This document shows, piece after piece, positions 5,823 through 26,728 of a DNA stretch of 64,000 nucleotides. A model generated the notes under the pieces. The model was given only the letters and a program-made list of their open reading frames with translations, did no database searches and had not been told where the DNA came from. The translations under genes were made by a program, and so were the position numbers. Each line of letters begins with the position of its first letter. Positions within the stretch are counted from its first letter, which is position 1. Origin of the DNA: Pleurostoma richardsiae (lineage: Eukaryota; Ascomycota; Sordariomycetes; Calosphaeriales; Pleurostomataceae); contig JANBVO010000002.1 of the NCBI GenBank assembly GCA_030052745.1, positions 682,001 to 746,000 on the forward strand. The letters are read 5' to 3'.

Positions 5823-7221
5823 TTACTCCGTCTTCCAGTGGTTGGTCAGTCCGCTGTCGACGTCCTCGCTGCCCAGATACAGCTCGATCGCGTACAGCCC
5901 CATAGTTGCCGCGATGTTGATCCACCGCCATGTGTTACCACCGGCATCTCCGCCTCGGAGCGTCCAGCCTAGGTCGTCGCCGTCGCTCGACACGGTGAAG
6001 TGCTGGAGTAGCAGGCTAGTATACACGGCGATGAGAATCGACGGTGAGAACCACGACAGGATACCGAGGAGCTTGCTTGGAGCATCGGAGTCCTCGAGGG
6101 ACGGGTCATCCATGAGTACTCTCGCCCCAGACTCGCGAACCGCGGGGATGATACGGGTTGCGCAATAGAAGACGATGATGCGGTAGGTGAGTGAGATGAT
6201 GACGGAGGGTGTTATCGTCTGGAACGCGGCATATAGGAAAGTGAAAGAAGAGCTCACTGCAGACGGTAGGCTGCTGAGCATGTGGAGGAGAGTAGAGTAG
6301 GACGCCATGATAATCGGCGGGAGGGGTGGAAAGTCGGGTTGTGAAGCGGCTTGCTGTTCGGCATATGCTGCCGCGGCAGCCGCTTCCGAGGACGGCATAT
6401 AATCGGTGAATATCTGGTAGACGCAGAGGACTACGTATGCGAAGAGTAGTGATGACTCGACTGGATTGCCTCTGCCACTGCCGATACCGAAGGCACACAG
6501 GAAGACAGCCGATGTCATCGTTACCCCAATGAGCGTAGCATCCAGGTTGCTGATTTGCGGGAACCGAGCTACGCGCCACAGGAAGTAGACGGCGCTCGCG
6601 ATGATAGAGCCAGAGAAGACCAGTAGTATTATCTGCGGTATATGGTCAGCAGCGGCAAAGGGACGGCGAGAAGAGCAAAACTGGGCTTCCACTTACCACC
6701 CACGTGTCGCTCCGTCCTCGGTTCACGAGCCATCGCGTAATCTGGCCTGCCGCCTGTATCACCAAGAGGCTGCAAAATCCCTCGAGCAGCTGGAAGACTG
6801 GACTCGAGTACCTCAGCCCCTTATCCCATCCTCCCAGTGTGACAGACTCCAAGACACCTCCCTGGCCGAAGAACCACTCGTGCCAGCTCGTCGGCTTGTT
6901 AGGGCGCGCAACATGCGCCACCGTCCTGGATACCCAGTCGGTGCTGCCCGCGTCGACCGAGAAGCGGTTCAGCGCCCAGATGAGCAGGCCCGGGATGACA
7001 ATCCACTGTGACAGGCGGATGAGGGTGACGAGGGCCCAGCGGAAGCGCGATCGCTCCGGGGTGATTATTTTTATGGAGCTGTACAAGATGTAGAAGAGAA
7101 ACAGCGACAGGCTGTAGGCCAGCCCTGCATCTCGGCCGCCGACATCGAAGGCGATGGGAATGGATAGGATTATCGAGAGCAGGAACACGGCGCTGAACAG
7201 CACGCTGAAGATCGTCCACAT
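5823..7221 (-). CDS. ICE2: ICE2-family ER membrane protein, two exons
   Basis: Exon 1 is 7221-6697 and exon 2 is 6632-5823, both on the minus strand, joined in phase 0 (DTWV then IILLVF), giving 444 residues. The chain has about eight to ten hydrophobic segments. It begins MWTIFSVLFSAVFLLSII and carries the ICE2 hallmark layout: N-terminal membrane pairs, a central WxxRVARFPQIS block, and a late SWFSPSILIAVYTSLLLQHF segment. In yeast, Ice2 is an ER membrane protein needed for cortical ER inheritance and for linking lipid storage to membrane growth; that role is family knowledge. Length is close to the fungal norm (about 440-490). It is convergent with the hydrolase gene. It also borders the accessory block at 8.5-21.8 kb and is a useful synteny anchor. 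Confidence 0.82.
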
Positions 7222-8507
7222 CTCGCGCGCGGTTTTCTGCTCCTTTTTCGAGGTCGGTTGTCACTAGGCGGGCTTGCGCTGCCGCGCCGAGCGTGCAAGC
7301 GTCGGGAGGAGGTCGAGACTACCTATCAGCAGCCACTCGGGAGACGATCTGAGCCGGGAAAGCCACGCAAATCGGGGGTGCGGAATGTGCGAGTGGTTCG
7401 AAGAGGAATGCGGTGAGCGCTCAGGCTGATAGATGCATCGGCGAAGCGGGAGTTTCTTGGCTGGTCCGCTGGCGGGCCTCGAGATTGGCGGACGATGCTC
7501 GAGGCGGTCGGCAGGGCTCTGCAAAATTGTCGTGATGTGGGTGGGATAAGAGAGAGCGTGGAGAGCTGCTCTGCTCTCAAGAGTATTAAAATTTGGGCGA
7601 GGTGTCCAGTCGCTTTCGTGCTCGTGCTCACTGGAATTTGGCCAAGGCAGCCTTATCGGCGCGGTAGGTACCTGGGTACCGTGGGTTATCTTCACGTGTC
7701 TCCGCTTTCTCCGCCAGGAATGGCGCACAGGTGCTGCCCAGGCTGTTATGGTGACCACAGAGGTGCTTGGCCGTTCGAGCAAACAGGAACTCATGAGATG
7801 GTCGAAGTCAGCAGGACAAGCTGGAAAGACAACGATGTAGGTGGTTGGCAGACGCGAGCCCGTTCCTTGTGCAGTCGCAACCTCGCTCGCAGGTCGCGTG
7901 CTTGTAAGATCGTGACTGGGTTGCATCAAGCAAGGTACGCGTTCACGGCCGATCTGCCAAAGATGCAGTGTACTTTGTTTCTGCTCTGGCTTGCATTTAT
8001 CGGGGTTTTTATGATATCATCCTGCATAGGTAGTAAATGCGCACGCGATGATCTCCGATGTGTTGTGTACAAGACCAGGGCAGACCTGCCAGTTATGCTA
8101 CCGAGTTACTCCTCATTTACATGTAGGATGATGGTGTGAACCCCAGTGCAAATAAAAGGGGTCTAAATGAGCGGCACTGAAAAGCTCCCTAAACGCACGG
8201 CAAGTATCTGTTTATACACTAGACTCGGCTTCTCCAGGCGCACACATGAAGAAGCCTATCCGTAAGTACTCGCTAGAATGAAGTTCCACAAGCCTGATAT
8301 ACGGAAAGTCAATCTGTATGGGATATATCCCAGCACGAAGTAACTTTACGAAAATGGTTTCTCGAGGGAGGTCGAGAGGAGAGCAATTTGTGGCGCAAGA
8401 CGTGTGGCGCCTATAGTCTCGACGCCATGACAGGCAATCCGCCAAAACGACATCGCGCCTCAACCTTCTGTGTCTCAAGTCGAGTTCTAGCTCACAGAGC
8501 TGTGCTT
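7222..8507. other. Intergenic region between ICE2 start and gasdermin gene end
   Basis: No supportable gene in 1.29 kb. It should contain the ICE2 promoter near 7222-7700. A palindrome-rich GGTAGGTACCTGGGTACC motif lies at about 7664-7681. Confidence 0.4.
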
Positions 8508-9466
8508 CTAGACCAAGAAGACGTCGTCATCCTGACCAACATCGGCCTCCTTGATTCCTGTGAGGCCCTCCTCTTCTAAAGCCTTGACGAGGTTCTCCCC
8601 ATCTCCCTCTTCCTCGCCAATGCCGAATGACGCCCCTTTAGCGAAAGTCGTATGGGACCACTCACCATCAAGAATGCCCTTCTTGATCTTTGCCAACCTC
8701 ACCGCCCACACGAAGTCGCTTCTGCGCTCGGCGGCCGACGATGTACCGGTTTCGTGAGTGAGACTGGCATCAAGGCTCAGCTCCGCCACTCCAGGGAACT
8801 CGCTGCAGGTTGTCAGCTCACTTATAGCTTCCTTTTCTTTCTTCGTGCCGAACACTTGCTGCTGAAACGGCGAGGGGGCCAACAGTTAGGGAGCCATATG
8901 ACTTACAACCCTGGACCTCCATGCCCAGTGCGTGCTTGGCTTTCGATCCTTGATGTCTTCGCGCCACGGGCGATGATGATACCCGTTATCATGAACATGG
9001 ATTTCGATACGCACAAGACGGTGTGCTTTTCCACGTATTTTGCCACCTGGTCGTCCTCGACCGTGTCCTCGATGTACTCCCCTGTCGGCTGGATGATGAA
9101 GGTCTCGAGACGGGCGAACTGCGCACAATTCTTGACCGACTTGCGGAACGCAACGCCGGCGTCAAGCTTGATCTCAAGCCCGGCTAGCGCTGCCACGGGA
9201 GCCCCGGCCCCTGCCTCGACTGCGGCTTCGTTAGTGCTCGCCGCTTCCCAGGTCAGATCCCACGCCTTCGAGGGGTAAACCGGCATGTCAGGGGGAAACT
9301 CCATCGGCCCGCGCGTGTTAATGACGTTGTCGAGGTGCTCGAGGTCCGGGATGACATGGCCGAGGCAGATGGCGCCTTTCGCGGCCCCGATGCCATTCTT
9401 TGGAAACACCGGCGGTGGATAGTGTGCCTGCCTCAGGACAAACCAACACTTTGACGCCATCGTCAT
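8508..9466 (-). CDS. Gasdermin-like pore-forming protein (HET-Q1/RCD-1 type), two exons
   Basis: Exon 1 (9466-8907) and exon 2 (8802-8508) join through a 104-base intron to give 284 residues, close to the about 280 of Podospora HET-Q1. Fungal gasdermin features seen are: an N-terminal ASKCWFVLRQAHYPPP; the ICLGHVIPDLEHLDNVIN block; a KSVKNCAQFARLETFIIQPT strand-loop segment; the membrane-facing KSMFMITGIIIARGAK stretch followed by a polar R/E segment; and the pre-terminal SDFVWAVRLAKI strand, which resembles the end of mammalian gasdermin N domains. The last 40 or so residues are very acidic (from about 248), a plausible autoinhibitory tail. Family knowledge: such proteins permeabilise membranes after a protease removes a C-terminal piece of about 5 kDa. 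An S8 protease gene lies 4.3 kb away. No break is visible. Identification rests on recalled family patterns, not a search. Confidence 0.78.
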
Positions 9467-10146
9467 GGGGTTGTGACTGCTCTGGGAAGTAGCAACCCCC
9501 GGAAGATATCTAGCGACGAGCTCGCAACCGGAGAACGGCCGTCGAATGCGGCAATGGAAGAACCCCGCAGCGGAGGGTCGAAGCGCGTTGGCTGCCTATC
9601 CGGTAGTATCGGACAATTCATAGCTGAGTGACGCCTGATACGTTGGCTGGCATCCGCGCGGCTCATTCGACGAGGTACTTGAGCAAGCTTTCCGCTACGG
9701 TCAACTCGATGCCTAGTCTCTGCTTTCCACAGACAAACCGGCCGAGTACCCGGCACAGGACGGGCTTTGATTTAGTCTGGCAGAAGCATTCATGGGCGTT
9801 ATTCCATGCCATTTTGTGTCACCCGTAGTTAGTTGCATTCATCCTGCAGAAATTTTATCTCATGAACACCAGCTCAGCAGCTGCCGTCTCCTTATCCTTT
9901 CCTCGAGCGGATAACATCACGCGGCTCCTCTCCACTCTTCGTTTCAGCCTTGCTTGGTTTCTCGTCACTGTCATTGTCGAAGCCAATAAATATTCGCGTA
10001 CCGCTCTTACCCCTACGCGGCGGTGACCTCAGCCGGCGTTTTCCTGACTCATAGTTGTCGGCTCGGATACTGAACTCCGAGACTCTTTCCTCATCTTTAC
10101 CTCGGCACTCCTCCACTGCAAATGGCCTGTCAGCACGCGACATGAA
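9467..10146. other. Region between AAA+ gene end and gasdermin start
   Basis: The part near 9467-9700 is the likely gasdermin promoter. The part at 10029-10126 may be an alternative last exon of the AAA+ gene, using a 58-base intron (10127-10184, GTGAGC donor, GACAG acceptor). That would replace the last 12 residues with about 33 others. No independent gene is supported. Confidence 0.35.
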
Positions 10147-13042
10147 TTAATCATCGATAAAGGCCTTGTTGGTCATGAGCTCACAATAGCCGTTAAAGGA
10201 GTCGGTTAACTCAGCCGCGCGTTCTAGGTGACTTTCCGAGATCCGCGTAATCCACATAGAATCATAACCTACTGCATCGTTTTTCCTTTCCCGACTAGAA
10301 GAGGCATAGTGGTGATAATTCCAATTCTCCTCTTGAGCAAGGGCTGCCGCTACTTGAAGCGCATTTCGGATCATACTGCGATTCCAAAGAGTCCCTTGTT
10401 TGAGACACTGCTTGGTGTGGTGCTGGGCCCATCTGAGCATAGGTGCCGTTGCGACCATGTCGCCGGTCACGCCGAAGGTCACGTCGCGTAGATAGCTCAA
10501 TTCATCTTTCCAGATCTTTAATATTGTGTCATCGTCTGGCCTCGTAAAATGCAGGGCAATATGGATGCGACTTTTGAGGGCCTCGTCGATTAAGCCCACG
10601 CGGTCCGAAGAGAGAAAGATGGCTCCCCTGAATTGATCGAGGATGCTGAGAAATGCTGGGCACATACTGAGAACTGTTGTGCGTCGTGGCACTCAGGCAC
10701 AGGGGATGGTGCTACTTACCGGACACAATTCGATTCCGGTCGAGGTTGTCATCTCTCTCGGACAGGTATATCTCAGCATCTTTCAACAAGATTGGACACA
10801 ACCACCGACTCGCGAGCGAAATGTGCGCTCGGAGTTGTACGTCGAACTGCTCTGGTTTGGAAGACAGATCCGCAGGCCCCTTTGCCGATCAGGGTTCAGC
10901 ATATCTTGCTAATGGACGAGGGGTAGAGACTTACGATATGATACAGAGGCCGACGACTTTGAGTTGATTCTGCTGCGGCCCTAAGCGTACTTGACTGTTG
11001 GCCACGTTAAAAGGTGTCTCTTTCGTACAGGGTTCAGACGGACCTTGCCACTGCCAGGTGGCCCGTGGAGGAGGGCAACCAGACCAGGCTTGAACAGCGG
11101 ACGTTCGCCATCGTGCCATATAAACTGTCGAGGAAAGTCGATAATGGCTCTCAGGATCTTCTTATGATGTCTGGAGTCGAATGGATCATCCGTAGATTTA
11201 TTCGGACTTGGAGGCTTGCGGGAGAACCGGCGGACTGGGATCGCATCTAGAGATTGGTGGTAAGCAAAAGCCGTCATATCCGAGACCTCATCAGCCACTT
11301 ACACCATTTCTTAGAGGCCAGCCCGAATGCAAGCAGGTACGGCGGAAGCAGTGTCTCCATTCCATTTTCAAGCAATTCTGACTCCCGAGCGAGAGCTGGC
11401 GAGCCGTGGCTGGAACGGAACTTCTCTGCCTCTCTAGCATCGACATCATCGTCGTCGAAAAGCGCGACGCAAGTTCTGCAGGCGAGGCCTAGGTGACATG
11501 GAGGAGGCGGAGGGGTCCCCACGTAGCCCAGTCGCGGCGTAGTCCCCGGATGAATCTGATCCAGAAAATCTCGAAATGGCGGCGCCGTCTCGTATGCTGC
11601 CTTGAAGTCGACGAACACCTCGGTGTCTATGTATTCTGAGCCGAGACCGGCTATAAGAGACTCTGTTAGGCCCTTATACTGGCCATGCCCATAGCAATCC
11701 CTAAGGAAGCGTCGTCCGCGCTCGGCGAGGTCGAGATCCGGGGCGAAATTTACGGGGATAACGGGGAGCTCTCTAATCTCTTTCGTGCCTTCATAATGGC
11801 CAATCTCGAAGATTAGATTCGCCGGGCGAAATACCTCTCCATCGTAACCCAGGTTGTAGCAATAGATTCGGACGGGCTGTGAAGGAGTATCAAATCCCCG
11901 GCTCATGTGAGAGATGACGGTGTGACCGGTCTGCACCGCGACGACGCGGAACGCGGCTGTTCTATCACGAGTCTTGGAATCCAGCCCTCTAATGATGGTG
12001 CATCCCGGGCTGAAGAGTTGCCACACGTCTTGGAACGAGATACCAACGAGGGTCCCTTCAATGATCTTCTTCTGCATGTCGAACAGGGGTTTCAGACTCT
12101 TCTCAATGAAGTCTATCAGAAATCGTACAGCACGACGCAGGGCATCTTGATCCTCGTCAGGCTTGCCCACTGACTCCTTCTTGGTAGTATCTGGTTTTCC
12201 GGCGAGTGGCTCTGGAGACCCAGGCGTGTCTTCGGCCCCGACAGACACATCACTTTGCGAGGAAAGCTCGGGTTTGGTTTCCAAGGTCTCGGTCACGATA
12301 TCCTTATGGTAGACCACGAGTAACTGCATAGGCAGGGTTTTCAATATCTTCTGATAGCTTGTAGAGGGACCGTTCTACAGCTTCCTCACTTACCTTAAAA
12401 GGGTAAACCAGCCTTTCGATTTTAGCATTCCACTCAGACCGTTCGGTACGTCAGTGAACTTAAACTTACAGGCATGGGGCCCATCGTATTTTAGTACCGG
12501 ATGTCTTCGCGAGAAAAGTCACCAGCAAGGCCGAGTTTATCAAGATCGCAAAAGGGCAGCTCTCATGTTGGCTCGGTCCTTTATCTTCATGATCTTCATG
12601 AAAGCTGTCCCCAACAAACGACCGGACTTTGTAGCCTGCAACTATCGCGTACTTGGAGTACTTGGAGGCAAACAGTTCTTCGCAAGGGTATACTGTATCA
12701 AAGCCTAGTTCTACCTCCTTGACTTCGAAGATTGTGCCCGGTTTGACAGCTGGCTCAGTTGTGCTGTCGCGGTCTTTCGACAGCTCAAATGGCTGTGGCT
12801 TATCATCTCTCACAAGGATCTCAGGCAGTACCGAGTCCGTCATTCTCAAATGATTGTTTTAGCCAAGATATTTGACTAGAGCAAGTGGTTTCAACTCACC
12901 TTGTCTGTCTGCGCAATCGTTCAACCTCTACTTGGAGCCTTTCGACTTGAAGTCTCAGCTGTTTGAAGGCGCCTTGGAGGGTCTCCGAGGGGCCGAGCAT
13001 CGCCAGAGATGGACCGCTTTCGGAACCATCCTCGTCTGACAT
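10147..13042 (-). CDS. AAA+ ATPase-like protein with DUF7025 domain, eight exons
   Basis: Minus-strand exons: 13042-12900, 12844-12470, 12412-12394 (19 bases), 12350-11303, 11246-11044, 10994-10935, 10879-10720, 10655-10147. They sum to 839 codons (838 residues). The N-terminus has a heptad-like segment (residues about 25-47). The middle (about 240-400) carries the DUF7025 signature: a TLVGISFQDVWQLFSPG block, the FRVVAVQTG strand and YNLGYDGEVF. The C-terminal AAA+ domain has an intact Walker A, GPPGSGKS (590-597). However, the Walker B region reads PILLKDAEIYL (K649-D650) where the family has a hhhhDEAD-like motif, and sensor 1 reads SSDR rather than TTNR. The SRIHIALHF segment with its likely arginine finger is kept. 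Nucleotide binding without normal hydrolysis is a reasonable inference. It is divergent from the protease gene and tandem with the gasdermin gene. Confidence 0.8.
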
Positions 13043-13787
13043 GACGTTCTGCTGACGATAACGCTGGCAAGGATGAGCTCTTATGTAGGCTTAAGGCTCT
13101 TCAATCAACTGTAGAAACCGTTGGGAATGTATCGTCTGAGGAGTCCGTGGTAATTGCTAAGTTGACCGGATTCAGTCTCACCAGACACTCGGAATCGTGA
13201 GTGCGGGGGAGTCAGGCAGCGCCCACCTAAAACGAATAACTGAGGAGCTCACGTAGCTCGAATGACACCTGATAGGTTGCTACATGGTAGCCGCATTGTT
13301 TGCTCAAGGTGCTTGCCGCTTCGTTGCCCATGCAGATGTCATGCGGACCAATATCCGTAATGCGCGACTCATCCCGAGTCTCGCCGAGTCAGGAAGTTGG
13401 GAAAAGCTCAGCTCGAGGCACATTGATGCAGGTGTTGACCAATGATGCGAGGATAACCGGCACACACCTGACCAGCTGCACTTCAAACTGGAGTTTCTGG
13501 CCCCCATACATCACACTCGGCTCTTGGAGTATAGCACTATCCTTCCCCGCTTCCCATGCGTTTCTGGAGCCTTGCCGACCGGGGTCTCTCCTCCTGCCAC
13601 TTTCTTTATCCCACGATCGGCGTTGGACACCCGATAATCTTGCGATAGTCACGGCGTGTTTGGGCTTTTCGCTTGGGATGAGCTTCAAGTCGGAAACTGA
13701 CCAGGGACTCGACATGACCTAAGCATAGCGGCGTCCCGCACACCGTGATACTCCAAGGGCCCAGTCGATAATGTGCAGGCGACAGAT
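13043..13787. promoter_or_regulatory. Divergent promoter region between AAA+ and S8 protease genes
   Basis: The 745 bases between the start codons of the minus-strand AAA+ gene (13042) and the plus-strand protease gene (13788) contain no other supportable gene. The layout means both genes depend on this one interval, so shared control is plausible. I could not identify specific factor sites by eye. Confidence 0.45.
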
Positions 13788-16700
13788 ATGGCAACAATCA
13801 GCGCGGGAGAGCTTAACCTCTTGGAGTTTGCTGACAAGGTGACCTGGAAACTGCTGAATTTCTCTTTTACTCTATGGGAAGATGACACTACCTTGCAATT
13901 CGGGCGGAAGCTGTCGGCAGAGCTTTTGCTCATCAAAGATTGGCTTGCCACGAACCGCCAGGTAGCTAAAGTGCAGAACGATGAAAAGCTGCAGAGGAGA
14001 GTGGCAACCCTCCTGAGAAACCTGGAGAGAATCTGCTCGGTACGTAGCAGTCCTTCTTGATCAAAATACCGAGTGTTTTCTAACATGGGTAACTCCACAA
14101 GTGGACTCCTCCTGGTAAGAACAGGGTCGAGGTCCAGGTGCCTTTATCCAGACAAAGCATCTCACAGGTGGAGGGATCCACCGTGGTAAGTTGATCACCG
14201 AGAACAGCCTTGTTTCCTCCCAGACACGGCTTCTTGCCCAGTTTTCGAGGCTACGGCTACTGGGAAGGCTTACAGACCTCGCAGTACCCAAATGCAGCCC
14301 TGCTGCTGATACCAGAGGCGACGATTCCCCCGGGAATCCAAGATTTCGCGCGGCTAGGGCCACAGGGGCATCAAGATTCCCTCATATTCACCTTAAAACA
14401 GTTTATTAAGGGTAGTCGGGATGTGAAGCAGCAGGTGACGACGGCTGCTTCAAGCATCGAAGAGTCGGGAGAAGTTCCCGAAGAAGATTTAGCTTTCCAG
14501 GTGCAGGATCTTTATCGATCATTGGCCAAACATTGTGTCTGTGTGCGAGACGGACTCACACGGCATATAATTGCCAATGTTCACCTAGCAGGCCCCAGTG
14601 CGTCTTCTGACAGTTCTTCCGAGGACTCAGACTCGTCATCTGATGAATTCGATAATTCCTCTTCCAAGCCGTCTTCGTATTACGCATTGTCCGAATCATC
14701 GACCGTCCCGGCGGTCAAATTCCATGTCTTGTTTCTCGATCACCCGCATGACCCCAAGCTTGAACGAGCATGCCACTGGCAATACACCAAAATTTCCGTT
14801 ACAAGACCTGCAAAGTACGTATGGCCCCTGGATGGCAGCGTATGACCAGGCTAATAGTCATACAGAATCAGGTTTGAGGACCGGTCCGTTAAAAAGACGA
14901 AGGCCAACCCCGTCGAAGAGTGCGAATATGGTTTCTGTGGGCTTATCTCAAGCCAGGAACCTATTAGTCTTCCACTCATTGTCTCAAAGGGCCAGCTGAG
15001 TTTCAAACATCCCCGGCAGTACCCTGGTGGATTTGATCTCGGCACGCCAAGCACCCCCTTGACAAACATTGTCAAGCTGCACGGCGAACAGTTCACCCAG
15101 AAGATGCGGCTCATACTGAGCTATCTACTTGCAAAGGCGGTATGGCAATTCTACGAGTCCGAATGGATGACGCGCAATTGGACAAAAGATGCGGTGCATT
15201 TCATGTTTGAGTCCAGGGCCGGCGAACGTGGCATATTCGTCGACGGACCATTTCTGCATACTAGTTTCATCGAGGAGTTAGATGGACGAGATACCAACGA
15301 GAGGATGAGAATCCACAAGTTTCCAAAGATCCTGGCGCTGGGGATCATGCTGATCGAACTAGAGCTACGAGTAAAGATCGAGGACTGTCGAAAGCCAAAT
15401 AGCGTGAGGCCAGACGGCACGTTGAGCATCAATGCGGACGCAATCGCGGCGGAACAGCTAATCAAGGACAAAAAGATGTGGAGGAACACCATCGGTGGCT
15501 TGAAGGACGTGATCCAAATATGCCTAAAACCAAGCAAGTTCGAGCGATATCGTAAGGACGTGCAGGGTCAAAGGAAGCAGTTATACAAGCATATAGTGCG
15601 CCCGCTACAGAAGCTTTGCGAGCGGGCATTTCAAGGCGACCTTGAAGTTGCTCCGGTCCTTCTTCCGACTCTTACAGGGGAACATGACGCGGACTCAGAA
15701 GCTTCTATTCAGGATCTCCTTGACATGTACCAATATGAGATCTCGCTTTCCCAGCCAGCGCCCCTTACTGACGGCCTGCGGACTCGGAGTGCTGACGCTG
15801 ACAGACAACTTTCAAGGTAGGAGCTGAGTAGACACGACTTCATCCCCGCACGGATAAGAATAAAATCTCACAGTGCCACAGGCCCACCCTTGGTCCGAAG
15901 TCCATGTCCGAGCAGCTTCCTCTGGCCAATGGGGATGGATCCATGTCGGCTGAGTAGGAGACCATGTCGATATCCTTGACAACATACAGTATACTAATCG
16001 GTTCACAGCGGAACTATCGCGACGTCAGACACATGGTTTGAGTTGCTTGATGGCCTGAACTCGCTTCTCCGAGCCAGACCGGGGGAAACTGACGACAGTT
16101 ACAAGGCTGTGAGAGTAGCTGTTATCGACACCGGAATCGATTCGAAATACGCGAGTCAAATAGCCAAGTACAAAGACTATGTAACGGAAACGGAGACCAT
16201 GACTGACCTCACGTCACATGGGACCAGCATCGTCCGGCTTATACTCAAGACACTTAACAAGGCGAGAATCTACGTGGTCCGTGTCGCTGAACGTGACAGA
16301 ATGAACGACGATACAATCATCTCGAAGACTCAAGCCCGGACCGCTGAAGTAAATCTATCAAAGGGGGGAATCCAGCATCTAGTAGAGCGGCGCTGACAGT
16401 GACTCGTAGGCGATTCGGTATGCGACGACGAAGTGGGAGGTAGATATCATCACCTTGGCGTCCGGGTTCGAGAGCGACAACGACGACATGAGAAAGGCAA
16501 TCGTTGAGGCAAAGGCAAAGGATGTCCTCGTGTTCGCAGCGGCTTCTAACTACGGCAATGTGAAGAGGATCGCCTTCCCAGCCCGGCTTCACTACGACGT
16601 GATGTGTATGTTCTCTACCAACGCGAGCGTGAAGCATTCACAGTTCAACCCACAACCGTCGCCAAAGTTGACACACAACCTGGCCGTCTTCGGGGAAGGC

Positions 16701-17024
16701 GTCCAGCTCGGGCCGAGCGAGCCGAAACTGATGGGGACCTCCTTTTCGACGGCCGTCGGTGCTGGACTGGCGGCTCGTCTGATCGACTTCTCGAGGCACA
16801 AGGACTCGAGGGAGAATCTCGGCCCCGAATTGCCGTACCTGAAACTCGTCGATGGCATGTCTTCTGTGTTTGCAAGGATGGCGGGAGGCGGGGCCGACAA
16901 TGGCTACCACTGCGTTGCGCCTTGGAGGCTGCTGGAAGATCTAGATAGGTACGGGACACGCGCCGCGAAAAGAGCAGCCGTGTGTGAGATCATAAAGTCT
17001 GCCCTGAGAGATAGGAATCGATGA
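13788..17024 (+). CDS. Subtilisin-like (S8) serine protease with large helical N-terminal region (HET-Q2-like), six exons
   Basis: Exons 13788-14039, 14102-14185, 14276-14814, 14866-15816, 16009-16348 and 16410-17024 sum to 926 residues. The first 600 residues are mostly helical. They contain a Ser/Asp/Glu-rich linker (from about residue 220) and a DUF7580-like part with ILSYLLAKAVWQFYESEWM and the HKFPKILALGIMLIELEL block, which resembles a degenerate kinase-like C-lobe. The C-terminal peptidase S8 domain is complete: Asp649 (VAVIDTGID), His679 (SHGTS), oxyanion Asn769 (AAASN) and Ser833 (GTSFSTA). No signal peptide is seen, so it is intracellular, unlike secreted subtilisins. In Podospora the S8 protease HET-Q2 activates the gasdermin HET-Q1 by cutting its C-terminus. 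The nearby gasdermin gene makes the same role likely here. The borders of exons 2-3 are the least certain. Confidence 0.82.
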
Positions 17025-17544: not shown

Positions 17545-20500
17545 ATGGACACAAGCGGCGACATCTTCCAGCTGACGACGAGATGCTCGGAACTATTCGC
17601 CAAATGCCAATCTATTCCTGCATTGGTTAAGGATGACTGGATCGGGGAGAGGCTGGCTGACTTCAACCTCTGGGCGGTCGGCATCCGGGCTTCGGAGACG
17701 GGGCATTCTTCGCTGGATTACCGTGTGCGTGACAGACCTGACGTGAAGCGTGTACTTGTCGGACTTCTTAGTAGCGTGGAGGACACAATAGAGCGCTGTC
17801 TACTCATGGGTGAGTCTCTCATGTCCGGTTTGAGTTGGCGCACGGAACAGATCTGGCTGAGGCTCTAAAACATGGTCCCAGATATCCAGGACTCTCCAAA
17901 TGCATCGTCACCTTCACGGGCCCCGACGCGAAGGCGGACGCAGGCCTCAGACAGTAACCCCTGGTCAGACTTCTCAGACGCCAGCACAGACTTCACAGAT
18001 TTCACAGACGATTCCTCAATCAAGATAGCCAGGGCCAGTAAACCATTTGCAGCGGAAATCAGTGACATTTCTACGACATTGGACCAGCTCTACCGCGTCT
18101 CCCTCCTAATTCAAAGGTCTGGCAAGAAATATCGGTTTCGAAGGGCGGACGCGGAGCTCGCCAGACTCAGGGACGACCAAGACCTCATGAGCCTGAGGAG
18201 CCACTTGTCGTTCATGATCTTGCTGCGCCAGGAAGAGGTCCACACAGAGTCTTGGACAAGCAATGATTACGAGATGCTGGCAAACCAGGTCGCAAGGGCC
18301 TCGGACTTGACCCCGGTTCAGATCAGGCTGATCGACGCAAATATCATGCGGAGAAACCGCATTCGCCATGCGACGAGACATCTTACACGACGAAAGGTTG
18401 AGGTACCAGCACCGGAAATGGCCGAACTACAGCCCGACAGTCCCACGAAGGAAGACAGAACAAGAGACGAATTTACGCCTGAGGTCGAAGGTTTAGTAGA
18501 AGAAAAGGAGCCCGGACAAGGCGAAGTCGTGAGCAGAGGACAGCAAGCTGTCATTAAGACAAAGAATACACTTGAGGTCTCGTCACCAGAGAGGCCACTG
18601 ACTTCTACAGAGATTGGCTCGGTGTTCATAATGGGAACGAAGACAGCCAAGTCTAGAGGGACTGCGATCACTAGGATCACGCGGATAGGGTCCAAGCAAG
18701 ACTACCCCAAGTGTCCCAAAGATCGAAGCATGTTCTCCTGCCCCTATTGCGGCCAGACTCTGTCGTCGGACTACTCTAAGGACGTCTCACGATGGCGGTA
18801 TGTTTGCCTAGGAATATCCAGAGCTGATCGAATGCGGTGCTAAGTTTTCGCAGGGGGCACGTCAAGCAGGACTTGATGCCATATACGTGTGTCTTCGGGG
18901 ACTGTAACCTCCCCCTGGATCTTTTTGAGTCGTCAGAGGAGTGGATGGCTCACACCAGAGCCGTTCACAGCGAAACGAGATGGATCTGTGGCGTTTGCCC
19001 AATAGATGATGTTTCCGGCGAAGAGGCAGCCGAAGTCTCCTTCAAGAGCAGCCAGGAATGGAAGGACCACACTGTCACAGCCCATCCGGAAGCCTTCAGC
19101 GAGATACAGCTCGAGGATTTGGCGAGCATAAGTGAGCGTGTCCATCTCCCGTCCATACCCTGCCCCTTGTGCCTGCATTACGACCCGTCCGAGGACGAAC
19201 CATACGACCACATCGCCAACCACTTGCACGAGTTCGCGCTGAGGGCACTCCCTTGGGAAAGCCCCGGTACCGATGACGGCTATGCTGACTCCGTCGACTC
19301 CAACAACGGCGCGGGCAGGCAAGTCACTGGGAGTATTCTAGCAGCAGCAACCACAGAAGATGACTACGTGAAGACCGTGTTTGACCGCGGGATAGCTAGT
19401 CTGAAAGAACTCCTGGCCGAGGTTTTAGCGCAAATCTTGGACGTTCAGAAAGGAGGGGCCGAGCATGTCCTGGACAAGCATTTGAAGGACCTTGACCCGG
19501 TCGTACCGCTCTTGAGGGAGATCTCAAGCCTCGATCTCAAAGACAGCCCCGACGATCAAACTACATCCCCCGACGAGAGTCAGTCGGATGACACCATCGA
19601 CCATTACACTCGATCGCTTCTTCGTATACGGGAAAGCATCCGCCTGCTCTCGGAGCGAAGGGACGTATTGTCAGAGCAAGAGGCGCAAGAAGCTGAAGAG
19701 AGCATTGAGGACGAGTGCGCGGCTCTACGCAAGCTGATCTCCGGTAAACAGGAACCACCTGTACTAGGAGACCAGCCCCTGAAGACAGAAGAAGCCCTTG
19801 CTCCGATCCAATCCTCGCTGTCATCTGGGCCAGAAGCAGCTCTTGGGGACTCTCCTAAAACGACTCGAACGAGTCAACCGCTCTTGCCCGATTCAGCAGA
19901 ATCTATTCCGGAGCACGCACTGTGGCAAGACGCCTTTGAAGCAAGATCTGACCTCTCCAAGACCCAGATGCGGTACTTTAAGGATCTCACAGAGAGGTTC
20001 ATGGACAGCGGCCCGAAAGACGTGGAGAGGTGTTTCTCTGACCTCATGAATCTATATACTGTTTACACATCCACATCCAAAAACTTATCGAAAGTAGGAG
20101 AACTCGCCTCACATTTAAAGGATTTCCCCAGCAAGTCCAAAGGGAAGGACATGCTGTTTTCGCTCGTTTCCGAGCAAGGATTAACTTCAGTGATGTGCGG
20201 CTCAATCGCTGTCATCGTCAACGAGCTGGGAAAGGTCATATTCTTCGAGTATCGAGCAGCAGTCATCTTGGAAGGACTAAGTGCCATTTGCTTGGCCGTG
20301 ACAACCGAACTTTCCGCTCCAAAACCTCAAGCAGACGGGGAAGCTAGGAACAATTTCAGCACACGGTTATCTGCCCTCTGTGCCGCCATATTCCGTCTTT
20401 TGAACCATATTTTGTTGGTAATGTCCCCGGATCAGGGTAAGCTTGTTGACTCGTGCCTGACAATACCAACCATGTCGCTAACCTTCATTTGCAGAGCCGA

Positions 20501-21763
20501 AAGAACTCCAAGGATTCGTGGAAAGGGATTCACCCTCTGGAGAAGACAACAAGACCATCTCCAATTTGTCGGGGCGGGTCAAAGACCTACTATCAAACCT
20601 CCAACGTGAACTGCGACCCATGACCGAGGCTCCAGCTACCACGACACTCTCTCTTGTAGAAAACGAGATCCAGCTGCGGAGAGATGCCTATTTTCAGGAG
20701 CAGATATCTCTGACACGAGACATATTATACTCAAACCTGATGAAAGTGTCTGGATCAATAGGTGCCTCCGGATCCATTACACATGAGACGAAAGTGGAGA
20801 TCCAGCAAAAGTGGCTAGGCCGGTTTCACGCATCACTGGCGGACAATATTTGGAAACAAAAGTTCGAAGGTTTGTTTTTCGATTCCCCGGCAGCGAAGTG
20901 TCTCTGACGCATGTCAACCAGATATCCCCAAAGCGGCGGCACGGGTGGGTGTACTGAATCCGAAAGACATCGCGCGGCTCGGCGCAAGTGATACGGCCCC
21001 CCGAGACTCTCAGAGGACGTTAAAGTCATCCCAAACAAGTCATTCGGAGGCACGCGACGTCTCCGTCCTCCTAAATCACAAGAAGCTGCAGAGATTCCTC
21101 GGCTCCGAGGCCTCGTCGATGCTCCTTATCATCCCAGGGGCTCGTCGGACACCAGGTACTCATGTTACAGTATCGTCCCTCGCGACAGCCAAGATGGTAG
21201 AAACGATCCGCGCCGCCTCCGCCACGGAGACCCCTGTCTACGCCATCGCATTCTTCTGCGGCATGCAAAGTCGTTCTCCGGCCAGCAGCACGCGGGACAG
21301 CAGGACCATCATGGTCCAGCTCGTGTCTCAGCTGATGTTCGCGTACCCCGGCCTGACCCCCAGCATATTGGGCAGCTGTCCAGACAATATCCAGGAGGCA
21401 AGCGATGGCGAGCTCTTTAGGCTGTTCTCTCGACTGCTGAAACGCTTTCCCCCCGAGTCAAGGATATTCTGCATCATCGACTCCCTGGACCGCTCTTGGA
21501 TCCCTGAGGAGTACAGCACGGGCGATGCCAGCGTCGTCCAGTTTCTAGTCCGCCTGGCCGAGGAGCTTCCCTCCGCCGGGCCAATTTTCAAGCTCTTGTG
21601 CACCACATCGGGTTCAGCAACTGGCCTTGGCATGTACTTCGGGCACGAGCAGCTTAGTATGCGCTCGATAAGGAAGAGCCCGCACCCGCGGTCCGGACGA
21701 CTGAGTAACTATCAGTTTAATCGCACCGCAGCTGGAAAGGCACTTGCAGGACTTTATGGCTGA
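17545..21763 (+). CDS. C2H2-finger protein with degenerate NACHT/STAND-like C-terminus, five exons
   Basis: Exons 17545-17809, 17882-18797, 18854-20436, 20495-20869 and 20922-21763 sum to 1326 residues. The first 100 residues resemble the helical N-terminus common in fungal finger/STAND proteins (TTRCSELFAKC onward). A Ser/Asp-rich stretch (DFSDASTDFTDFTDDSS) follows. Residues about 371-480 hold several Cys/His pairs typical of fungal C2H2 clusters (FSCPYCGQTL, YTCVFGDCNLP, HTRAVHSETRWICGVC, CPLCLHYD, HIANHLHEFALRALPW). After a helical middle region, residues about 1098-1300 look like an NTPase domain. There a strand leads into PGARRTPGT where a P-loop GxxxxGK[ST] should be, and a Walker B-like FCIIDSLDR is kept at about 1229-1237. 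The lysine-bearing P-loop is missing. There are no terminal WD, ANK or TPR repeats. Role unknown; a regulator or former sensor in the island is inference. Confidence 0.75.
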
Positions 21764-22011: not shown

Positions 22012-23307
22012 TCATTCCCCGATGACATAACCCTGCTGCAACGCCCTTCTGAACAGCTCCGCGAACCCCTGCGTGCCCTGACAGCTACTCTCTTCCCTCT
22101 TCTCCATTGCCTTGGGCAGCCACTGCTGAATTTTCTCTATTCGCGTTTGATTCTGCCGCATATTTCGTCAGCATACTCGCAACTGAACAAACAAAAGCTA
22201 CGAAAAGGGGAGTCCTACCGACGGGTGAGTGCTGATCCACTCGGGCGGCTGCAGCTCCTGCTGCCTGTCCATCCTCTTCCAGAAGTCGACCGCCTCGCGC
22301 GGGTCGTAGCACGCCTCCGCCATCATCATCAGGCCGATGTAGTCCGCCTCGCTCTCCTGCAGCCGGCTCATGGGCCGCGAGAACATCAGGTCCAGCAGGC
22401 TGCCGCCGAAGAACTGGGTCAGCAGCAGGCCGCCGGGGATGGCCGCCGACAGCAGCAGCAGGCTGCCCAGCAGGATGTTGACGCCGATGGCGCCGCTCAT
22501 GCGCTCGGCGATGTGCTCGGCGAGGTTGTGCGCGATCTCGTGGCCCAGCACCGCCGCCAGCCCGCTGTCGTTGCGCGCCAGCGGCAGGATCCCGCTGAAG
22601 ACGAAGACCTTGCCGCCGGGCAGCACGAACGCGTTGGCCGTCGCCGGGTCGTCGATGACGCGCACCTCCCACGCCGCGTCGGCCATGCCGCTCACCGGGA
22701 TCAGCTTGCGCATCACCCGCCGCACCATGAGCGTGCGGGGATCCCAATCCGGCAGCAGCCGCCCGCCCTGCCGCTCCAGGTCGTAGAGCACGCGCTTGTA
22801 CTGCATCTCCGACACCTCCTCGATCGACTCCTCCGAGAAGCAGTTGAAGCGCCGCCGCCCGCTGACCGGCACCACCTCCACGTTGGCGAAGTAGAAGGCC
22901 ACCGCGCCCAGGAAGGACAGCGCGATGATGGTGTGGGTGCGCGGGCTGCGGGCCACGCGCTTCATCTGGTCGGCCGTGACGAGGGGCCGCACGTCGCGCC
23001 GCGGAGGAGGCGGCCAGGCGGCACGGCGGGGAGGGGTGTGCGAGAAGGGTCGCTTCCATCGGGGAGAGATGATGACGACGGGCGGGCTGGCGCGAAAGGC
23101 GGACGGAGGTGTGGCAGCTGGCCGTTTAGGCCTACGACAATACGGCAGCTCGGCGGAAAAGGAAGCCATGCCTCGGACGCCTATGGCCCGCGCGGCGGCG
23201 GGACGCACGGAGAGGAGCCGTCGCGGAAGCATCGTGGACGCCGGGGGTTTGTGCCGCGAGGTCGGTCGGAGCGGAGCTAAGAAGAGTGTTCGCGCCGCAA
23301 GTGTCAC
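22012..23307 (-). CDS. OMA1: Mitochondrial inner-membrane metallopeptidase OMA1 (M48), two exons
   Basis: Exon 1 (23307-22219) and exon 2 (22152-22012) join in phase 0 (EWISTHPS then NQTRIEKI) to give 409 residues. The first 100 residues are rich in Arg, Ala and Ser with hardly any acids, as expected of a mitochondrial presequence. One hydrophobic segment follows (TIIALSFLGAVAFYF, about 125-140). The zinc site is intact: HEIAH in VLGHEIAHNLAEH and the third ligand in LQESEADYIGL. A second membrane stretch (NILLGSLLLLSAAIPGG) lies between them. Family role: stress-activated cleavage of inner-membrane proteins, in yeast linked to respiratory supercomplex stability. The N-terminus is longer than in yeast, so a downstream ATG (for example 23232) is possible. 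It flanks the cell-death block on the far side from ICE2. Confidence 0.9.
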
Positions 23308-24041
23308 GAGGTAGAGATCGCAACTGTGAGATTAACGCCAGTGTCCAGCTTCATGACCTTCCAGCGAGGAAATGAATGCTTGTCGGTCGAGCGGGAGCTG
23401 CTCCGCGCGGTTGTTGAACCGACGGCGCAGGCTGGATGAGAAAGGTGAAGCTTCAACTCGGGCTGGAGCTGGAGTGGGGCTTTGTCATCGCCCACCCGGC
23501 CGGAATGGAGTTGGCGGGGCCGGGTAATTAGTGGAGGGGACCGACCAACAACCGCCTGCGGTTCCATCAAAGAAGATGCGGGCAACCAACGCTGGAATGT
23601 GTCACGCACCACGTCAAGCAGCCGCATCTTACTTTGACGTCTCTCTTCAGAATTACAAGGGATTTTTGCTGTACGCATCACTTACACATGACCTGGGACT
23701 GAAACTGGTTACAAATGACTCTGTTGCCCATCCAAAAGCACCAAGCCAGGTGCTGCCCCTACACCAGACCGATACGTCTTAAACAACCCCTGAGGTCAGG
23801 GGGACCATAGAAGTGAATTAACCACCCGCAGCTGGATATCTACGGGATATTCTTAGAATGATAATACCAATCGTTTTGACTAAGATAGTCCACAAGGGAA
23901 CAAAATCCAATGTCGCTGAGCTGTCGTCTCATCAGATGATAAATCCACAGATTAGGATGCACCCCCGGAACATATAAGATGAAGAAAGTCCCCATCTAGC
24001 GAAACACCACCATGTCCATTCCAGATTCCATGTCCACCACT
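23308..24041. other. Intergenic region upstream of OMA1
   Basis: Holds the OMA1 promoter and the 3' flank of the GH16 gene. No gene recognised. Confidence 0.4.
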
Positions 24042-25274
24042 TTACAGAGCCAACACAAACAGCGCACCGACAGCAGCCAGCGCCAAGCTCGCGCCGGTCC
24101 GCACCGACGCTCCGCTGACGACCACGCAGCTGTCGCCGCTGCAGGTCGCCGACGAGGGCGACACGGGCACCGCGCCGGTGCCCTTGGCCGGCGAGGACGA
24201 GGACGTCGCCGTGCCGTTGTAGCCGCCCGCCGGGTAGCTGGGGAGGCTGGCGCTGGCGCTGGCCACGGGCACCACCGTTGCGGTGTAATAGACGATCTCG
24301 ACGGCGGGCACGCTGAGGGAGGATGCTGCCGGGCTGGCGCCGGAGGAAGACGACTCCTTGGCGACGCGCAGGGTGGTGGTGCCGCTGACGGTCTTAGTCT
24401 TGGTCAGGAAGGACACGGAGGCCGACGACGAGGCGGGGGCCGCGGGCGCAGTGGTCTCCTCGCTGCTGCCGCCGGCGGGGCACACGGTGGTCGTGGTCAG
24501 CACCTCGGAGGTGACCTTGCCGACGGGGCAGTTGGTGACGGTGGGCGCGCACGAGGTGATGGTGTACGTGGTGGTAATGATCACGGTCGAGGTCACGTAG
24601 CCGCCGGCGGGGAGAGACGCCGAGGTCGCGGTCGAGGTCGAGGTCGGCTTCGGAGACTCGGTCTCGGTGACGGGGCAGACGGTGGTGTAGACGGCGATGA
24701 CCTCCGTCGTCACCTTACCGATGCGCGCGGGGCAGTCGGTCACGGTCGCCGCGCACGAGGTAATGGTGTAGGTCGTAGTCGCGAAGACGGTGCTGGTGGT
24801 CAGGAGCGGCGCGGAGGACGTGGTGGCCACAGAGCTGGTATTCAGGTAGACCCTCGACGAGGAGGACGAAGATGACAAGATTGCCGAGGAGGTGGTGGAG
24901 GCCACAGAGGCGCTGCTGCTGCTGCTGCTGCTGCTGCTCGAGCTGGAGCTGGTCTCGACAGATGAAGTTGAGGAAGTCGCGCTCACACTGGAGGAAGTGC
25001 CAGCCGAGCTGGAGCTGGAGCTGGAGCTGGAGCTCGAAGTGGCGGAGCTGCTCACGGTTGAGGAAGAAGAGCTGGTGGTCGATGAAGAGGAAGTAACAGC
25101 CGAGCTGGAGGAGGATGAGCTCGAGCTGGAAGTCGCAACAGAAGAGGTTGAGCTGGAGGTCGACGAAGTCACGGCTGAGCTGGAGCTGGAGCTGGAGCTA
25201 GAGCTGGAGCTAGTCGACGAAGAGCTGGATGTCGAGGAGCTAGATGTCGAGGAGATTGTCGACGAGGTGCTGGA

Positions 25275-25312
<38 letters not shown>

Positions 25313-26728
25313 TAGTGCTAGAAGCGATAGACGAAGTCGAGCTGGTGATCACAGAGGAAGACGAGCTAGTGGTCGAAGAGCTCGAGGTCGTTGTCGAGGA
25401 GGTGCTGGAGGAGGTGGAAGAGCTCGTCGTCGAGGTGCTGGACACGGTCGACGAAGTCGACGAAGGCTACGTCGGGTCAGCGTCCTGTACCACCAACTCA
25501 CACCGGCAGAGCCGCGCTGCTAGCTTACCTTGACGTCCTGCTTGGTGTAGACGAGGATGCTCTGGACCTTGAAGAACTGCTCCGAGAACGCATTCGGGGT
25601 CGCGGCGACGTAGTCGTTGCAGGTCTTGCCGGAGCCGGCGACGGCAGCGCACTGGGCGCCCCAGATGCTCGGGTCGCCGGCGGTGTTGCCGCAGAAGTCG
25701 ATGCCGAGGACGAACTTCTGGCGGGCGAAGGCCTTGGCGATGTTGCAGTTGTCCTTGGAGAGGTACAGCTGGGGAGAAGACCAGGTGGTCGGGTCAGGGG
25801 TCCCGGCGGTGACGTCCTTGGGAACGCTGGCCCAGGGGAAGGCCCAGATCTTGATGAAGTCGGTGGTCCACTCCATGGCATCTGCTTCCTGTCAGCTCTA
25901 CCGCACTGGGAATCCCACGACGCAGGACCACTCACAGACACCGCCAGCGTCATTTCCCCAAAGAGACGAGCTGTCCTTCACAGTGCAACCTTGTCCGGGG
26001 TACTGGGTTGGAGGGTTGTAGATGGTGTTGTCGCAATTAGCGGTGTCAACGTGGCCGACAGTCCCAGTCTGCGTCAGCGTGCAACTACCGACGATGGAAG
26101 CGTTGGAGTGCAGGGCCATCTCGTTGTGGTCCTGCAGGTTCCAACCCTCATAGAGATCGATCTCGCCAACGGTCAACCACGGCTCGCCGTACATCCAGCT
26201 GGTCATAGGTCAGCCTTCCCCGGAGTTTACTTCTGCTCCCTTATGGGAAATTACTCACAAAGCGGGCCACGCTCCGCAAGCAGCTCCAGGCAGGTGGGTG
26301 AAAGAGCTGATGAAGAGACCACCATCATAGGTCGTCTTGCTCTCCAGGCGGACGCTGTTACGGCCCCCATCGGAGGTCGTAAGCGTGGAACTGTGATCCA
26401 CACCAATGTACATCTCGCTGCCCTGGGTAGAAACGAGACCCAAGTTCGTAGCATCCTGCTGGCTCCTGTACTTGACGAAGCCATTGTTGGCGTCGGCATC
26501 CTACGCATCGTTAACATACTCTCCCGGCAGCCGTGAAGCACCTGAACCTGCTCGAGACCAGTCCGAGTGGTTGGAAGGATCGGGATCACGTACGGTAACG
26601 AAGTTGAACTTGCTGAAGAAGTTGGTAGAGTCGTATGTGTCAGAGACCTGGTACGTCTGCGCAACAGCTTGCGCGCTAACGGCGTAGGAGAGGGCGGCAG
26701 CGCCCAGCTTAAGGAGTGAAGGGGCCAT
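24042..26728 (-). CDS. GPI-anchored GH16 beta-glucanase/transglycosylase-like enzyme with long Ser-rich stalk, five exons
   Basis: Minus-strand exons 26728-26594, 26500-26259, 26198-25936, 25881-25529 and 25466-24042 sum to 805 residues. Residues 1-24 are a signal peptide. The catalytic part (about 30-330) has the GH16 site VGEIDLYEGWN (ExDxxE) and the conserved GGVYAMEWTTDFIKIWAFPW block, which is created by the exon 3/4 junction. Circular-permutation repeats are absent. Exon 5 encodes about 200 residues that are nearly all Ser/Thr. Two copies of a TTTYTITSCxxTVTxCP ... TTVCP module follow, then a Ser/Ala linker. The C-terminal hydrophobic tail (GASLALAAVGALFVLAL) follows a small-residue site, which fits GPI attachment. 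Expected location: outer plasma membrane or cell wall, acting on beta-1,3(4)-glucans. An in-frame TAG at 26503-26501 lies inside intron 1. Confidence 0.9.
24910..25240 (-). repeat. GAGCTG/CAGCTC hexamer-rich repeat encoding the Ser stalk
   Basis: On the plus strand, blocks of GAGCTG and GCTGCT repeat many times (for example 24914-24940, 25008-25036, 25180-25212). They are read on the minus strand as Ser codons of the GH16 stalk. Such coding simple repeats are prone to changes in length. Confidence 0.75.
25276..25311. repeat. (GAC)12 trinucleotide microsatellite inside GH16 exon 5
   Basis: Twelve perfect GAC units on the plus strand are read as a run of TCG serine codons on the minus strand. 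It is in frame, so gain or loss of units would lengthen or shorten the stalk without a frameshift. Confidence 0.9.

Follow-up and report, generated by a model that had tools for sequence, protein, structure and literature searches.

The stretch of DNA from Pleurostoma richardsiae (Sordariomycetes, Calosphaeriales) analysed here (the window; 64,000 nucleotides, positions 682001-746000 of contig C49, which is 2,304,137 bp long in a 39.4-Mb assembly of 136 contigs) contains a block of four genes, in which a gasdermin gene and a gene for a DUF7580-S8 protease stand 4.3 kb apart, which confirms the spacing given in the initial annotation. The locus is probably a Q1L/Q2L-type module for gasdermin-mediated cell death, with both partners in cis. 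The pairing of a gasdermin with an S8 (subtilisin-like) protease is already known, and the pair in the window is a further member: about 80% of fungal gasdermins are reported to lie near a protease gene, with about 63% given for S8 (PMC10197012, PMC12881547). The companionship of a DUF7025-AAA+ ATPase gene and a C2H2/STAND gene, the other two members of the block, is new in the literature searched. Titles and the beginnings of abstracts named no DUF7025-AAA or C2H2 partner of gasdermins, while the text or supplement of Clave 2022 may name such neighbours; the words DUF7025 and DUF7580 are absent from the papers of that literature. The core mechanism is likely and of a known kind, and the extended module is new and testable.

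The gasdermin gene consists of two exons on the minus strand (9466..8907 and 8802..8508) separated by one GT-AG intron of 104 bp, and encodes the 284-residue gasdermin-like protein proposed in the initial annotation. In a homology search, residues 3-236 matched RCD-1 of Neurospora crassa, the nearest solved structure, with an expectation value (E) of 8.3e-41, and the predicted structure of the Thelonectria olida homologue contains the N-terminal gasdermin fold. No Pfam or NCBIfam model matched at the thresholds used, and the listed public proteins of P. richardsiae do not include the gasdermin. The pore-forming part spans approximately residues 1-247 and is followed by a tail of 37 residues, of which 13 are Asp or Glu and two are Lys or Arg. 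The likeness to RCD-1 raises the alternative of a cleavage-independent gasdermin triggered by a divergent allelic form; RCD-1 itself is described as governed by two allelic variants and not by cleavage (PMC12881547). However, the window protein has a linked protease, and its 37 residues after KGASFG have no counterpart in P0097, where 6 residues follow in the RCD-1 comparison, which makes this alternative very unlikely.

The second partner, initially described as a 926-residue gene with an S8 triad, proved to be 925 codons plus stop. A DUF7580 region (residues 363-542) is followed by the S8 domain (residues 640-847), which matched PF00082 at 37 bits against a cut-off of 21.8. The triad D648/H678/S832 and the oxyanion residue N768 are invariant in all eight alignment rows, and the predicted structure of the Xylaria acuta homologue shows a subtilisin fold. 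In the gene model, less confidence attaches to acceptor 14101 and to one 13-nt exon. The public model P0111 is spliced differently in the N-terminal half, lacks a portion of the DUF7580 half and departs from the homologues at the C-terminus, where the re-derived model agrees with them. No secretion signal was seen by eye, no signal-peptide predictor having been run. NCBIfam matches to QhpE and mycosin fell far under the curated cut-offs and were not used. When the DUF7580 profile was compared with the PDB, all 33 matches listed were kinases, MLKL included, but they were weak (E 0.083 to 1.4) and 24 of them were one protein, IRAK4; when the complete protease model was used for structure searches, the rows listed contained subtilisin-fold proteases only and no kinase. 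The apparent kinase likeness of DUF7580 may serve as a lead, not as evidence of fold. Judged by eye, DUF7580 paralogues without S8 bear other N-termini, and on contig C84 a HeLo domain (PF14479, 4e-8) is followed, in the next open frame, by a DUF7580 match that barely reaches the cut-off.

Linkage joins the two genes within the genome and beyond it. Two queries run on the genome, together with a profile built from database sequences and run on selected loci, identified four gasdermins (Table 1), against a best E of 4.5 in a reversed-frame control. All four have an S8 gene within 10 kb, with 163 bp to 6.5 kb between the matched stretches. If the 24 S8 loci were spread uniformly over 39.4 Mb, this outcome would have a chance of about 3e-8, although such figures flatter any clustering of immune genes, and islands make the model generous. 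The 24 loci are a lower bound: 38 exon matches were grouped by hand into 22 (C44 and C131 below the family cut-off), to which the window and C13, the latter from a separate search, were added. The remaining S8 genes showed no gasdermin in the flanks examined, which for most covered about 1.5 kb on each side. Two weak gasdermin candidates, C60:1989114 (E 0.22) and C50:188878 (E 2.7), gained no support from the profile scan of selected loci and were rejected.

Some of these loci have features of their own. C84:62001-80000 is an immune-type island with a NACHT-ankyrin gene, a DUF7025-AAA gene, the S8 and gasdermin genes, and HeLo and DUF7580 frames; its S8 gene has, by eye, a STAND-like N-terminus. 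A copy of that N-terminal part, 89% identical and followed by an S8 domain, is found at C85:136018-137850 with its frame split and with no gasdermin in the flanks examined. At C13:681831-687558, a C2H2 gene lies head-to-head with a DUF7580-S8 gene, whose protease may be without its target or may act on a different sort of target.

For other fungi, a shared contig was used as a proxy for adjacency, a loose one on long scaffolds. By this measure, an S8 homologue occurs on the same contig as a gasdermin homologue in 6 of 22 cases outside P. richardsiae, namely in X. acuta, Coniochaeta ligniaria, Oidiodendron maius, Apiospora marii, Colletotrichum salicis and one metagenome contig. The linked proteins of O. 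maius carry the numbers 170236 and 170237, and the pairs of C. salicis and of the metagenome lie on contigs of 5,785 bp and 10,321 bp, respectively.

By analogy with demonstrated cases that the reviews describe, a core mechanism can be proposed. At rest, the acidic C-terminal tail would keep the gasdermin silent. A signal reaching the DUF7580 half would switch on the S8 domain, which would cleave its partner close to the conserved KGA(S/T)FG segment, with Phe246 as the best candidate. The freed residues 1 to about 246 would then form plasma-membrane pores, leading to death of the hyphal compartment. More tentatively, we infer that the C2H2-STAND protein might be a sensor acting on DUF7580, and that the DUF7025-AAA protein might regulate that sensor or the protease complex.

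The closest known parallel in protein classes is HET-Q1/HET-Q2 of Podospora anserina, which likewise combines a gasdermin carrying a short C-terminal inhibitory part with a subtilisin-like protease (PMC12881547). There, however, het-Q1 and het-Q2 are described as idiomorphs, meaning that different genes occupy the same locus (PMC12881547); they therefore meet only after fusion, in allorecognition. In the window, the genes are in cis, DUF7580 is attached to the protease and the AAA and C2H2-STAND genes lie alongside, differences drawn from descriptions of the HET-Q proteins and not from their sequences. With the two partners in cis within a single assembly, the protease has to be kept in check, and anything might act as the trigger, for instance infection, fusion or damage. 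A strict HET-Q-type pair, polymorphic between strains and killing after fusion of unlike strains, would agree with the shared protein classes and with the fast divergence of the partners from X. acuta (61% identity for the gasdermin, 46% for the protease and 33% for the AAA protein). The arrangement in cis, in the one strain available, speaks against it, and we consider such a pair unlikely. The HET-Q-type module for non-self recognition or defence that was first suggested is partly supported: sequence, fold and linkage (in the same genome and, through shared contigs, in other fungi) speak for a gasdermin/S8 execution module, while a HET-Q-type role in non-self recognition stays a conjecture. 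The pore might instead serve unconventional secretion or controlled leakage, given that one review raises secretion as an open role of such clusters (PMC12881547). Nothing in the window favours this, the characterised fungal gasdermins treated in the reviews kill, and among the alternatives it has the slimmest chance.

The initial annotation also held that nothing unrelated lies between the two genes. A complete DUF7025-AAA+ gene does intervene (about 9892-12843), but it proves to be a recurrent companion. Grouping of 23 DUF7025 matches gave 22 loci in the genome, and only two of these, in the window and on C84, are less than 5 kb from a listed S8 locus. Each of the two also holds a gasdermin, and in each the AAA gene (minus) and the S8 gene (plus) are head-to-head. 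With two of the four gasdermin loci having a DUF7025-AAA gene within 5 kb, the chance of at least two under uniform placement is about 2e-4. Outside P. richardsiae, three of nine AAA homologues lie on a gasdermin contig: the top two, from T. olida and X. acuta, and one on a 13,485-bp metagenome contig; since the S8 and AAA homologues of X. acuta both share the gasdermin contig, all three are on one contig. In the alignment, read by eye, the window AAA protein keeps the Walker A motif GPPGSGKS, and its Walker B Asp-Glu is replaced by Lys-Asp; the T. olida protein has Asp-Asp and the X. acuta protein Glu-Asp. Asp-Glu is kept in all five other rows covering the site and in the C84 AAA, so that altered hydrolysis would be at most a trait of the clade of the window AAA. 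In the gene model, an upstream start at 13042 is possible and the exon around 12394-12469 is uncertain. An NCBIfam match to the bacterial anti-phage ATPase IteA was far under the curated cut-off and was not used.

The block probably extends past 17024 into the C2H2-STAND gene. Its introns 17810-17881 and 18798-18853 are likely, its last junctions are uncertain, and the NPHP3_N domain at 20819-21760 (E 9e-8) has a P-loop that appears degenerate by eye. The C2H2 and STAND stretches are likely, though not proven, to belong to a single gene; on C82, the open frames listed show no STAND part downstream of C2H2. The N-terminal part (17869-18840) has three genome matches, each beside one of the three DUF7580-S8 genes (window, C82 and C13). 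The zinc-finger part has eight including the window, and seven of these have one of the 11 DUF7580 matches at a distance of 2.4-3.8 kb; the remaining one, on C59 (E 1.4e-4), has no DUF7580 match anywhere on its contig. Five of the seven pairs are head-to-head, and the two tandem pairs are the gasdermin-holding loci of the window and C82. As four of the seven have no S8 or known gasdermin alongside, C2H2 associates with DUF7580 and not with gasdermin as such.

The STAND part follows a second rule. Each of its three other relatives is head-to-head with a DUF7025-AAA gene, at a distance of 2.8-3.2 kb. The NPHP3_N profile gave a match within 5 kb at 6 of the 22 DUF7025 loci, five head-to-head and one (C84) in tandem; two further head-to-head pairs found by direct query bring the former to 7 of 22, at 2.2-4.2 kb. 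This count rests on 83 of the 105 NPHP3_N matches (E up to 4.3e-4), grouped into 78 loci; the 22 weaker rows left out include three matches to the P-loops of the DUF7025-AAA genes and one at C100:61923 (E 0.02), which stands tail-to-tail with a DUF7025 locus at a distance of 2.4 kb. The genome thus follows two pairing rules, one that couples DUF7580 to C2H2 and a looser one that couples DUF7025-AAA to STAND; the block in the window combines the two. It is possible, though we lean away from it, that the AAA and C2H2-STAND genes are bystanders in an immune-gene island, a reading compatible with the core mechanism. The crowding of C84 with NACHT-ankyrin and HeLo plus DUF7580 genes would fit, as would the absence of AAA from two gasdermin loci, the 15 of 22 DUF7025 loci for which no head-to-head STAND partner was found, and the C2H2/DUF7580 pairs that stand without S8 or gasdermin. 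Against this, the partner rules reach beyond islands (7/8 for C2H2/DUF7580; 5/22 by profile plus two by direct query for DUF7025-AAA/STAND), AAA is head-to-head with S8 at both loci, and AAA recurs on gasdermin contigs in two species and one metagenome contig.

What has been called a two-gene cluster may therefore be a four-gene module built of recurrent pairs. A further proposal, which we regard as rather doubtful, is that in such four-gene immune modules, made of the DUF7580+C2H2 and DUF7025-AAA+STAND pairs, DUF7580 is a kinase-like adaptor with swappable output, either a membrane-active helical domain, as in MLKL, or S8 with a separate gasdermin. Necroptosis-like and pyroptosis-like execution would then share one sensor-adaptor relay, with an AAA+ gate that binds, and perhaps does not hydrolyse, ATP. 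If true, fungi can connect one and the same sensing apparatus either to a pore-forming helix bundle or to a protease-gasdermin pair. Protease control upstream of fungal gasdermins is named as a topic of future research in a 2025 review (PMC12881547), and the recurrent partners are concrete candidate genes for that step.

Protease-clustered gasdermins of the Q2L type are similar in having an S8 gene within 10 kb, but are described as two-gene clusters whose annotated proteases mostly carry WD40, ANK or TPR repeats or NOD-like receptor (NLR) parts (PMC10197012, PMC12881547), whereas the window has a fused DUF7580 and further recurring partners. HET-S/NWD2-type clusters also place a death effector beside a STAND sensor (PMC10197012); they use amyloid signalling and a HeLo effector in place of a protease and gasdermin. 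Bacterial gasdermin-protease defence clusters differ in their anti-phage role and show about 10% identity.

Several observations weigh against the proposed module. Cleavage, expression and killing are predicted here from genes alone, and the modelled gasdermin tail of the T. olida homologue is of low confidence, with a predicted local distance difference test score (pLDDT) mostly below 50. The closest DUF7580-S8 paralogue, on C13, has no gasdermin in the flanks examined. No S8 relative is among the matches listed for T. olida, the source of the closest gasdermin. Shared contigs on long scaffolds are a mere proxy, and 16 of 22 S8 homologues and 6 of 9 AAA homologues from elsewhere have no listed gasdermin on their contig. 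The altered Walker B motif makes ATP hydrolysis by the window AAA doubtful. Further, no AAA gene is near the gasdermins of C82 and C90, and a full-length one would hardly fit the 5.8-kb contig of C. salicis, so that AAA is dispensable for some pairs.

Table 1. Genes of the window (window positions) and other gasdermins found in the genome (contig positions).
Feature	Position	Strand	Remark
ICE2 gene	5823..7260	minus	housekeeping flank
Fungal gasdermin (fGSDM), 284 aa	8508..9466	minus	E 3e-83 in gasdermin search
DUF7025 + AAA+ + AAA_lid_13 ATPase	about 9892..12843	minus	public model P0134 (NKR23_g1047, 843 aa)
Stretch separating the divergently transcribed AAA and protease genes	12844..13787		
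DUF7580-S8 (HET-Q2-like) protease, 925 aa	13788..17024	plus	six exons; ATG 13788, stop at 17024
C2H2 zinc-finger then STAND-type NPHP3_N, probably one gene	17545 to about 21763	plus	
M48 peptidase gene	22198..23331	minus	housekeeping flank
Gasdermin, C84	74.6-75.5 kb		E 8e-16
Gasdermin, C82	349.9-350.7 kb		E 1.5e-11
Gasdermin, C90	139.0-140.0 kb		E 1.3e-7; only E 0.05 with second query

The M48 peptidase of the flank is OMA1-like. Beyond it, at 24045-25466 on the minus strand, lies a long Ser/Thr-rich open frame with no Pfam match, perhaps encoding a cell-wall or glycosylphosphatidylinositol (GPI)-type protein.

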